This document shows positions 10,177 through 37,227 of a stretch of 39,686 bases of DNA, piece after piece (the stretch's first letter is position 1; the number at the start of each line of letters is the position of its first letter). The stretch lies in contig CADCOC010000020.1 of NCBI GenBank assembly GCA_902802945.1, forward strand, positions 1 through 39,686, read 5' to 3'. The translations under genes were made by a program, and so were the position numbers. This DNA comes from an uncultured bacterium. GTDB taxonomy: Bacteria; Verrucomicrobiota; Kiritimatiellia; RFP12; UBA1067. The notes beneath the pieces were generated by a model, which made no database searches, was not told the DNA's origin, and saw only the letters and a list, made by a program, of their open reading frames with translations.

Positions 10177-10193
10177 GCGCAACCTTACATCCC

Positions 10194-10377
10194 GTTCCGC
10201 ACCATAATCACACGGCAGTTCCACCCGCCCCGTTCCGCACTGTAATCGCACGGACCATCTTACACCACTGCGGTTCCGCACCGTAATCGCATGCAGCTCC
10301 CCTCACTCACACACCTCGTTCAGCACGTAATCACATGGTTCCCACGCTGCCTTCCGTTCCGCACAATAATCGTGCGC
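10194..10377 (-). repeat. Left array: five copies of a 22-bp repeat
   Basis: Five copies of GTTCCGCACCATAATCGCAC-like sequence lie at 10194-10215, 10232-10253, 10273-10294, 10318-10338 and 10356-10377, with starts 38, 41, 45 and 38 bp apart. Copies differ at a few positions (CCAT/CTGT/CCGT; the fourth is degenerate). The same core in opposite orientation forms the array at 11822-12054, and one copy lies at 37206-37227. There is no gene between 10177 and 10545. Confidence 0.85.
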
Positions 10378-10415
10378 AAGGCTCATCCGGAAAACAACTT
10401 GGGGCAAACCGATTT

Positions 10416-10470
10416 GTATGCATTCACATACATTTCCCATACAATTTTCATACATTTCCTGTGCATTCTT
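10416..10470 (+). promoter_or_regulatory. 11-bp tandem units, AT-rich, upstream of the orphan gene
   Basis: Three exact-length 11-bp units follow each other without gaps: CATACATTTCC (10427-10437), CATACAATTTT (10438-10448), CATACATTTCC (10449-10459). Degenerate units flank them (10416-10426 and 10460-10470). T-tracts repeated at about one helical turn are expected to bend DNA or to present a regulator with sites on one face. The block ends about 40 bp before the -10 box of the downstream gene and is strikingly AT-rich for this contig. Confidence 0.55.
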
Positions 10471-10506
10471 TTGACAGTTTACCCCCTATCTTCGGGACGT
10501 TGGACG

Positions 10507-10515
10507 TGGTAGAAT
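10507..10515 (+). promoter_or_regulatory. Extended -10 box of the orphan gene
   Basis: TGGTAGAAT fits the extended -10 pattern seen across the window. It overlaps a sequence GAATTATGGTGCCGGACC (10512-10529) that resembles the core GATTATGGTGCGGAAC of the flanking arrays with one inserted base, so a protein that binds the repeats could also cover this promoter. Confidence 0.5.
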
Positions 10516-10545
10516 TATGGTGCCGGACCAAAGAAGGAAATGCAC

Positions 10546-11565
10546 ATGAAAAAATCCGTCGAAGAGTACCTGGAAGACCGTGGTTGCCGCGTCGTGCGGC
10601 AGCCGGCGGAGCCTGCACCCTGCACGTTCGAGACCCTGGTAGACGGGTTCCTCGTGCACGTGCTGCGCCTCGACAGCGAGAGCTACCGGCGTGCGTTCTG
10701 GCGCGAGGCGTACCGCAACGGGCACACCATCGGACACGTCCCGCGCACGTTCGAGGCGTTCTTCAGGCGCAACGCGCACACGTTCGAGGAGAAAGTTTCG
10801 CTCCTCCTGGGCGTGGCCGCACTCTTCGGCGCCTACACGGTGGCGACGCTCCTCTACCGGCGGCTCTCGCTCATCGTCAAACGCCTCCGGCGCCCGACGT
10901 ACTACGAGCGCGAACGCGAACGGCGACAGAAGCTCGCCATCGCGCGGCGCGAGGTCCGCAAACACCACACGCTGAACCCGCATCCGACCTTCGACGCGAT
11001 CCGCGCGGCGCTCCGCGTTGCGCGTACTTCGCCCGAGTCCGCGATCCGCCTCGGGTCGCTCCTTGAGGACCTCGAGTGCTTCGTCGACAACACCCTCATC
11101 CACGACGCGCAGGGGCAGATCGTGGGACGTAGGGGCGGCATCAAACGCCTGCTCCAGCGCGAGGCGCCCGACCTCTTCGCGAAGTACTCCACGATCATGC
11201 GCTACAAGGCGACGGCAAAGCGCTTCCGCCAGGCGTGCGGCTCGGGCGAGCCCGTGCCCCCGGCGACGCTCCTGCCCACACAGGAGACTGCCGGCCCCGT
11301 ATCTACGCCCGCGCCGGAAGCCGCCGATCCCGCTCCCGATGGCCTCACGGACGAGATGTGGGCCAAGCTGGTTGCCCCGCGCGAAGTGGCGAGAACGATA
11401 CTGGAGGAGTGCGAGGGGACACTCATCTCGCTCGAGGCCGCGCTCGCGCTGCGGCTGGACCCGGACTGCATTCCCGCGACGGGGGAGGAATACGTGCGCA
11501 AGCCAGATGCTCCGCGCATCCCGCGGAAGGTCATCAGCTGGCTTGTCCGGCATCAGGTTGCCTGA
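10546..11565 (+). CDS. Unrecognised 339-residue protein with one membrane segment
   Basis: I do not recognise the family. Visible parts: an N-terminal acidic/aromatic region (1-80), a probable single transmembrane helix at about 84-103 (VSLLLGVAALFGAYTVATLL), a very basic charged stretch at 104-140 (RRPTYYERERERRQK), a compact helical core at about 150-232 with VGRRGGIKRLLQREAPDLFA and MRYKATAKRFRQACG, a Pro/Ala linker (235-265), and a helical C-terminus (266-339). The start at 10546 has AAGGAA at good distance; the ATG at 10540 is too close. The gene lies alone between two inverted repeat arrays, with AT-rich phased repeats and a -10 box upstream. The basic core could bind nucleic acid, which is a guess. 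Confidence 0.75.
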   Translation: MKKSVEEYLEDRGCRVVRQPAEPAPCTFETLVDGFLVHVLRLDSESYRRAFWREAYRNGHTIGHVPRTFEAFFRRNAHTFEEKVSLLLGVAALFGAYTVATLLYRRLSLIVKRLRRPTYYERERERRQKLAIARREVRKHHTLNPHPTFDAIRAALRVARTSPESAIRLGSLLEDLECFVDNTLIHDAQGQIVGRRGGIKRLLQREAPDLFAKYSTIMRYKATAKRFRQACGSGEPVPPATLLPTQETAGPVSTPAPEAADPAPDGLTDEMWAKLVAPREVARTILEECEGTLISLEAALALRLDPDCIPATGEEYVRKPDAPRIPRKVISWLVRHQVA

Positions 11566-11821
11566 CGCCATCTCCCTCAAGTCTCATTGACCCAAAGTCA
11601 TTACTCAAAAATATAATACGCCTACTATCGAATATGGTTCACAAATCTTCATTGCCAACATTGTTCACAAATCACAAATCTCAATTGTAGGAAGGGTGGA
11701 TTCCCTCATAAGCCGCAGCGCGTAAGGGCGCGCGCCCTCTACCTCTCTACGTCATTGCACAATACTTCCAATTGAGGTGTCCCTCAATTGTGCAACCATG
11801 GTATAGAGGGGGCTTACGCGT
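11566..11821. other. Intergenic region with hairpin, no gene seen
   Basis: The stretch is AT-rich at first (11580-11690) and contains two near copies of GTTCACAAATC (about 11635 and 11662). A perfect hairpin with arms CAATTGAGG (11769-11777) and CCTCAATTG (11782-11790) and loop TGTC follows; it has no U-tract after it. GGGCGCGCGCCC (about 11727-11739) resembles the GC palindromes at 1139 and 3107. No open frame looks coding. Confidence 0.5.
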
Positions 11822-12054
11822 GCGATTATGGTGCGGAACGGAATGGGTGGAGACATCGCACGATTATGGTTCGGAATGCGGTGTGGGGCCGTACGATTAC
11901 GGTTCGGAATGCGGTGTGGGACCGTACGATTACGGTACGGAACAGATGAGTTTCTGGGGGTGATATCATGGTGCGGAACGTGGTGGGAGGATGTAACGTG
12001 CGATTATGGTGCGGAACAGAGCGAGGGGCTGGTGGTGATATTACGGTGCGGAAC
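11822..12054 (+). repeat. Right array: seven copies of the same repeat, opposite orientation
   Basis: Cores of GCGATTATGGTGCGGAAC type lie at 11822-11839, 11860-11877, 11893-11910, 11926-11943, 11962-11979, 12000-12017 and 12037-12054, spaced 33-38 bp. Copies two and three share nearly their whole 33-bp unit, so part of the array grew by tandem duplication. The core is the reverse complement of the left array repeat (10194-10377), so the two arrays point away from each other around the gene at 10546-11565. Confidence 0.85.
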
Positions 12055-12175: not shown

Positions 12176-13016
12176 ATGGCGAAAAACCGTGAAATCAGTT
12201 CATGTGTGACGGGTACTTTCAAGAAGGGGGTACGGATTCCGCGCATTTATCTTGCATCAGCCCTTGCGCTGGCGCAGTCGGTTTTGCAACGGCCCGAGAC
12301 GTGGCGTGGCAGCCGCAGAACGGCTCGACCGACATCAGCTCCCAGAACAACTGGAATGGCAACACCCGTCCGGGCAATGGCGACTACATGATGTTCGGCA
12401 ACGGCAATCTCGGCGGCGACTATACGGTGACGATACCGGCCGCGACGGCTCGCCGGCGGAAGCTTCATCAAGCTCCGCTCGGTGAACGTGGCCCAGAAGG
12501 ACAATGACCCCGACCTCCAGGTGTTCGGCGGGAAGATGTCCGAGAACGACGAGCACAACTACGGATGGGACGTCGCGGAGTTCGTGAAGGACTGGGGCTT
12601 GACGGAGATCGCGATCCCGCTCGTGACGAAGAACCCCGACGGCACGATGGGCTTGCCGTTCATCGACAAGGGATTCCGCGCGGACGGCAAGTCGCGTTCT
12701 TCGCGCGGAAAGATCGACTGGTCCCGGACGAGGAGGCCGCCTACAGGGCCGCGCGCAGGCGCGCCCGTACCGCGCTCGCGTCGGAGAGCGTGCTCGGCAT
12801 CCGCGCGACGGTCAAGGACGTGCGCGAGGCGCGCCAGGCGCTTGGCGGGAAGGTCGTGGCCGACAAGTCGAAGCTCGCGCGCTTCGAGGCGTACCTCTTC
12901 AACGACACCGGCAAATACGCGCCCGAGCCGTCCGACGGTATCGCCTGGAACAACGACACCGGCGTGAAGATGACCGTCCGCAACGTGCAGGTCCTCACCG
13001 ACCGCCCGGCCCGCTG
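12176..13016 (+). pseudogene. Frameshifted gene for an exported protein
   Basis: A strong start is present: AGGAGG 5 nt before the ATG and an extended -10 box TGATACAAT at 12133-12141. The reading then changes frame at least three times. Frame one gives a signal-like start (MAKNREISSC to LASALALAQSV). After about 12275 a second frame continues with ARDVAWQPQNGSTDISSQNN and YMMFGNGNLGGDYTVTIPA, a beta-strand passenger-like piece. From about 12445 a third frame gives LAGGSFIKLRSVNVAQKDND to FRADGK, and from about 12690 a one-base shift gives VAFFARKDRLVPDEEAAYRA to VLTDRPAR and a stop at 13014-13016. The last two parts form one domain that I cannot name. Several independent breaks argue for decay rather than a single sequencing error. 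Confidence 0.65.
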
Positions 13017-13102
13017 ATTTGCCGCATAAAACAAGAGATGTCTCCACTTTGACGCATCATGATTGACAGCTAATTTTGCGGCTTGTATGCCACAAGGGAA
13101 TG

Positions 13103-37205: not shown

Positions 37206-37227
37206 GTTCCGCACCGTAATCGCACGC
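37206..37227 (-). repeat. Single copy of the array repeat
   Basis: GTTCCGCACCGTAATCGCAC is followed by GC and equals the third copy of the left array (10273-10294) except at the end. It lies at the edge of the ATPase scrap, 28 bp from a REP-like hairpin, and shows that the repeat is dispersed in the genome, not confined to the arrays. Confidence 0.8.

Follow-up and report, generated by a model that had tools for sequence, protein, structure and literature searches.

REPs are hairpin-forming palindromes, usually present in more than 100 dispersed copies per genome, and RAYTs are Y1 (HUH) transposases of the IS200/IS605 type. The RAYT genes are flanked by two inverted REPs (PMC2817692). Similar to this arrangement, in the clade of genes represented by the locus described here, a gene lies between inverted short repeats and further copies of the repeat are scattered in the genome. 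The locus is contained in a stretch of 39,686 nucleotides from an uncultured bacterium (contig CADCOC010000020.1; hereafter the window). In open-licence PMC papers, nothing was found on repeats of this kind in Kiritimatiellae. Based on the results presented below, we consider it somewhat probable that the locus represents one of the copies of a small selfish single-gene mobile element, whose protein recognises its own promoter-proximal site.

Repeat arrays and promoter region

The core of the repeat, ATTAYGGTNCGGAAY, is matched 13 times in the window when up to two mismatches are allowed, versus an expectation of 0.62 and a maximum of 3 in 100 shuffles. The upstream array (10194-10370, minus strand, with its outermost edge at about 10192) contains four copies with at most one mismatch (viz. 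10194-10208, 10232-10246, 10273-10287 and 10356-10370). The first-pass annotation had counted five copies on this side at a spacing of about 38-45 bp; the spacing stands, but the fifth copy, GTTCAGCACGTAAT at about 10318-10331, is degenerate. The similarity of the paralogous cassettes L051, L052 and L276 to the window cassette starts at 10192. As the earlier reading had it, the downstream array (11825-12054, plus strand) has seven copies, which start at 11825, 11863, 11896, 11929, 11965, 12003 and 12040 (spacing 33-38 bp), and either array is the reverse complement of the other, with a single gene of an unrecognised family in between. A lone dispersed copy is also present far from the cassette, at 37206-37220 on the minus strand.

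Between the left array and the gene, a promoter-like region can be read from the sequence at 10471-10515 (plus strand). It includes TTGACA (10471-10476) and TAGAAT (10510-10515), which at 33 bp apart do not have the normal sigma-70 spacing, and the TAGAAT box has the extended -10 motif TGG. The repeat-like sequence noticed earlier at the -10 box is a leader copy of the repeat with two mismatches (10514-10528, plus strand), which is opposite in orientation to the upstream array and shares the last two bases of TAGAAT; it could alternatively be promoter sequence. It is found at the identical position, -32, in L070 and L267. Repeats of CATACATTTCC with an 11-bp period lie between the left array and the promoter (10422-10465) and also 5' of L051, L052 and L059; they are maybe a second binding element.

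In 19 cassettes or cassette fragments, the sites upstream of the gene comprise 53 on the minus strand and 3 on the plus strand, all three of the latter being the leader copy at -32, and those downstream comprise 68 on the plus strand and none on the minus strand. The array spacing is 38.6 +/- 3.3 bp and its phasing with the DNA helix is weak (R 0.53), so that the cooperative binding suggested earlier from the spacing is possible, but the helical phasing behind it is not pronounced. The longest perfect stem in the window copies is 2-6 bp and hence they are not palindromic; a subset of the divergent sites is palindromic (mean stem 4.7 vs 3.6 in shuffled sequences). Two other identities were considered for the arrays and rejected: a CRISPR-like array, as the inter-repeat sequences in the array of genome G026 are repeats themselves and nothing outside the core is constant among the copies of the window, and recognition of single-strand hairpins, as the window copies do not form good stems.

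The encoded protein and the neighbouring genes

The gene (ATG at 10546 to stop at 11565, plus strand) encodes a protein of 339 residues, P0001, which has no Pfam match and belongs to an undescribed family. Conservation in this family is concentrated in residues ~115-245, and the invariant residues, which include R116, R127, R134, R135, D175, D181, R195, Y214, Y220 and K221, do not spell out a known catalytic set; in alignments A2 and A3 the invariant acidic residues are too few for an obvious DDE triad and there is no invariant histidine. A conserved core domain (residues 134-245; 10945-11280, plus strand) is delineated by these alignments and by AlphaFold2 models (pLDDT 82 and 88, core 88), in which it is made up of helices, a beta hairpin and a helix-turn-helix-like pair. 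The lack of a recognised catalytic domain is counted as evidence against the mobile-element reading.

A hydrophobic helix resembling a membrane span is present at residues ~84-102 (10795-10851, plus strand), as expected for the membrane-anchored protein that had been proposed. However, only 27 of 53 family members have such a helix and the predicted membrane anchoring is not a trait of the family. The proposal that the cassette sits between two decayed genes also holds in part. The pieces of the right-hand neighbour (12448-13030) have internal deletions relative to G013:C24 and G012:C113, which carry extra sequence between the counterparts of these pieces, and as judged from this comparison the downstream gene looks decayed; however, the upstream neighbouring ORF, although it lacks ~185 bp of the sequence of its relatives, still has an open frame.

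Distribution of the protein family

The named matches to homologues are gut or rumen metagenome-assembled genomes labelled Kiritimatiellae, Lentisphaerae, Verrucomicrobia or uncultured bacterium. In an even survey across the phylum, the family was found in 8 of 194 genomes, all of the same class, and two of these genomes carry at least 24 copies each, where 24 is a lower bound as this was the number of candidates scored per genome. Further, the genomes are drafts, mostly metagenome-assembled, and because multi-copy genes break such assemblies the copies counted are minimum numbers, and contig ends coincide with some of the junctions. The family is an undescribed one of the Kiritimatiellae. For 53 of its members, profile searches of Pfam, NCBIfam and PHROGs gave no match. 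The PADLOC defence models gave only single-member hits with E >= 0.02. With the core-domain structure, the best Foldseek match had an E of 4.0 and the best VIA-align match a Z of 2.9 (72 residues, rmsd 4.6); neither the full-length nor the core model had a convincing match in PDB, and the full-length model had none in BFVD, by which a new fold is not proven. A phage or plasmid origin was rejected, as neither collection gave a tblastn match. By eye, the helix arrangement with a G-x-W-x-x-W-L / T-x-x-x-Y-M pattern is like that of DUF3102 (PF11300); however, homology to this domain was rejected, with an hhalign probability of 3.4% over 17 columns only and no hmmscan hit.

These copy numbers bear on the suggestion, also made in the first-pass annotation, that the locus is a segregation-type element. 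A segregation or nucleoid-organising system, in which the protein acts together with centromere-like arrays, would agree with the geometry of the arrays and with a basic, possibly membrane-attached protein. However, the protein has no similarity to ParA or ParB, its gene is present in 1 to at least 24 copies per genome, and mostly single sites accompany it, which together make this explanation highly improbable.

Association of the site with the gene

By an expectation-maximisation search, the site motif AAGATTT..TCCGCACCRTAATCTCA was found 5' of 53 of 63 divergent homologues, at a constant distance from the start codon, versus 0.15 in shuffled sequences; the starting motif had been picked out by eye, and shuffles and the fixed position served as controls. 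Homologues that consistently lack a nearby repeat are thus not the pattern seen. Arrays on both sides are a feature of the clade of the window, and most homologues have a single upstream site instead, so that the expectation of homologues always flanked by arrays is incorrect for most of them. In a wider scan, 63 upstream sites were in the direction of the gene and none in the opposite direction, and most of them are 75-97 bp short of the point, 20 bp inside the gene, at which the scanned stretch ends. Downstream copies of the site among 65 homologues are mirrored in 10 and in the same direction in 5. The tandem repeats upstream of homologues L072, L077, L079 and L050 were rejected as related features, being unrelated simple arrays.

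The distance between sites is also correlated with that between core proteins (Mantel r 0.68; permutation maximum 0.14), and the corresponding r is 0.05 for the 24 bp upstream of the site and 0.39 for the 24 bp downstream. This co-divergence supports recognition of the site by the core domain, without proving it, because the correlation is in part due to the common descent of the gene and its promoter.

These observations are also what one would expect if the proteins are DNA-binding autoregulators, each paralogue repressing or activating its own promoter through the upstream site. The position and orientation of the site, just 5' of the -10 box, are fixed, and the site and the protein diverge together. 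According to this explanation, the duplications are old and gene conversion keeps the copies alike, only the operator and the coding part are conserved, and the arrays are titration or high-occupancy operators. Autoregulation would not require the mirror-oriented arrays on the downstream side, and the edges of the copies, described below, also bear on it.

Cassettes and dispersed sites

The genome from which the window comes (5.8 Mb, 300 contigs) has 61 exact repeat sites and the reversed-pattern control has none. Sixteen of these sites are in three gene cassettes, viz. that of the window and those on contigs C183 and C29, whose genes are 84-91% identical to P0001 and have the same outward arrays on either side. 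The remaining sites stand alone or form small solo clusters (C3, C58 and C99), some of them inside larger dispersed repeats, and most of the dispersed single sites do not adjoin a family gene. Several pairs of sites are alike on one side (0.7-1.0 over 50 bp) and unrelated on the other, with the switch at the repeat. Another observation concerns L103, whose upstream half is as in L098 and downstream half as in L091, the switch being exactly at the site, as if joined. In L008, L020, L092, L093, L097, L102 and L105 the site is joined to the palindrome CACATATCGCGATAWGTGA in a dispersed intergenic repeat, of which several copies are alike only downstream of the site. The genome also contains a divergent paralogue of 232 residues (L058, G000:C1:25338-25682), which has no array nearby.

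Among relatives, cassettes with both arrays are present in G005, G006 and G007 in addition to the three loci of the own genome, and partial ones at contig ends in G010 and G013. Where a gene of the array clade is present, the exact site CCGCACCRTAATCTCA is found 5-32 times per genome; genomes of the same genus without such a gene mostly have none, with one site each in G012 and G014. G008 has 6 such sites, and G026, which belongs to another genus, has 33. In G026, a tandem array of ~12 copies with a 53-bp period (L227, on contig C82, positions 1805-2590) lies downstream of a divergent homologue, many clustered intergenic copies are found elsewhere in the genome, and this downstream array is independent of the arrays of the window clade. 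Across 21 other genomes, each with 0-9 exact copies, 22 of 57 exact sites are within 1.5 kb of a family gene. The repeats are linked to the gene, as the first-pass annotation supposed, yet they are not confined to the window locus.

By analogy with REPs and RAYTs, the protein may now mainly copy short repeats throughout the genome, and movement of its own gene would be rare. The inverted repeats around the gene together with dispersed solo copies, the dispersed sites in genomes with an array-clade gene and their absence from most congeners without one, and the homologue of G026 with its array and clustered intergenic copies would all be accounted for in this manner. However, profile searches identified no tyrosine (Y1/HUH) transposase, the repeat copies of the window are not palindromic, and solo copies are few in most genomes with homologues; we therefore regard this possibility as improbable, though less so than a role in segregation.

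Edges of the copies and presence or absence of the cassette

Three copies in G067 (93-97% identical) and two in G076 (95% identical) abruptly lose their similarity at the outer edge of the site, and those of G075 do so at an outer degenerate site. In G162, at least 24 copies extend from the site to the stop codon and their surroundings are otherwise unrelated. One example of this kind is the closest pair, L350 and L352, with a third-position identity of 88.7%, in which the similarity is confined to the stretch between 52 bp before the ATG and 11 bp after the stop; it starts at a CAAGGA..TCCTTG site followed by CATTT, and further G162 pairs show the same behaviour at their edges. We also note that the members in G162 and G174 (e.g. 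L341-L360), at least 24 copies per genome, constitute a sub-family with a membrane-like helix, of which the 5' edge is at the CAAGGA..TCCTTG site and the stop codon forms the 3' edge. In the case of L354, the element has its left flank in common with G174:C315, and its right flank is found on another contig of G174.

The cassette of G007 (on C219) is missing at the corresponding place of a near relative, G006:C157, where flanks of 96% and 91% identity enclose 81 bp vs ~2.1 kb; the difference includes ~230 bp beyond the left array, is not precise to the base and does not polarise gain versus loss. No target-site duplication was seen. The window cassette, at 97% identity, has a counterpart in G013 with the left flank in common, and those on C183 and C29 have flanks in common with the copies of G010 and G013. 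As judged from these flanks, which the three cassettes of the own genome have in common with G013 or G010, the lineage is at present of low activity and movement is slow. The missing target-site duplication, the imprecise empty site, the common flanks and the location of most dispersed single sites of the own genome away from a family gene also count against the mobile-element reading. An empty site for the window cassette was sought and rejected, as the left gene is present in G010 and G009 and the cassette is not, but the DNA that follows is different; comparisons through the flanks of L063, and of three G162 loci with G174, were also rejected as not clean.

The autoregulator explanation is in agreement with the matching of the own-genome cassettes at shared flanks in G013 and G010. 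However, there is no similarity in the flanks of copies with ~89% third-position identity, the edges of copies of 93-97% identity are exactly at the site and the presence of a cassette is polymorphic, and in view of these results autoregulation alone appears rather unlikely, although it is the strongest of the alternatives.

Proposed explanation and its significance

A single-gene mobile element is the best-supported and most economical model. Of the interpretation in the first-pass annotation, the selfish cassette of a protein with its own sites is the part with most support, as the gene-array unit recurs at several loci of the genome and its relatives, family members in general are accompanied by the site, which is where copies end, and one locus has a counterpart that is empty. 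In the mechanism we propose, the novel core domain of ~110 residues would recognise the short site at the 5' end of the element beside the promoter, and the protein bound there may keep the expression of its own gene low. The same binding would mark the DNA to be moved or copied, for which the element may have a cut-and-join chemistry or may make use of host enzymes. Within the clade of the window, the site has been multiplied into outward arrays on both sides, which would raise the local occupancy by the protein, and solo sites have spread through the genome. More tentatively, and with less confidence than in the element itself, we suggest that these genes represent a new kind of transposable element, a unit from site to stop codon moved by a protein without a known catalytic fold and reaching at least 24 copies per genome, of which one clade has mirror arrays and solo sites, REP-like but independent of tyrosine transposases.

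The results suggest that a class of gut bacteria on which little work has been done contains a large family of self-spreading genes without annotation. A recognition site of its own in combination with no known transposase domain would imply either a new chemistry of movement or a borrowed host enzyme. The site-protein pairs, which co-vary over dozens of subfamilies, lend themselves to working out how DNA is read by the domain. The element also provides a second, independent case for testing the dependence of short dispersed repeats on a nearby gene.

Comparison with known systems

A protein beside clustered short sites is also seen in ParB-parS and iteron-type systems; however, the protein has no sequence match to these in Pfam and is encoded in many copies per genome. 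The likeness to simple insertion sequences is closer, as there is one gene, with sharp ends, multiple near-identical copies and a presence/absence difference. Unlike insertion sequences, there is no recognised transposase domain and no target duplication was seen, and most copies are without a two-ended terminal inverted repeat, the 3' edge in G162 being the stop codon. Compared to REPs and RAYTs, the protein is unrelated to the IS200/IS605 Y1 transposases by profile search, and the window clade has long arrays, and most relatives one site, in place of two REPs. Thus, the element works like a REP/RAYT or insertion-sequence unit but belongs to neither.
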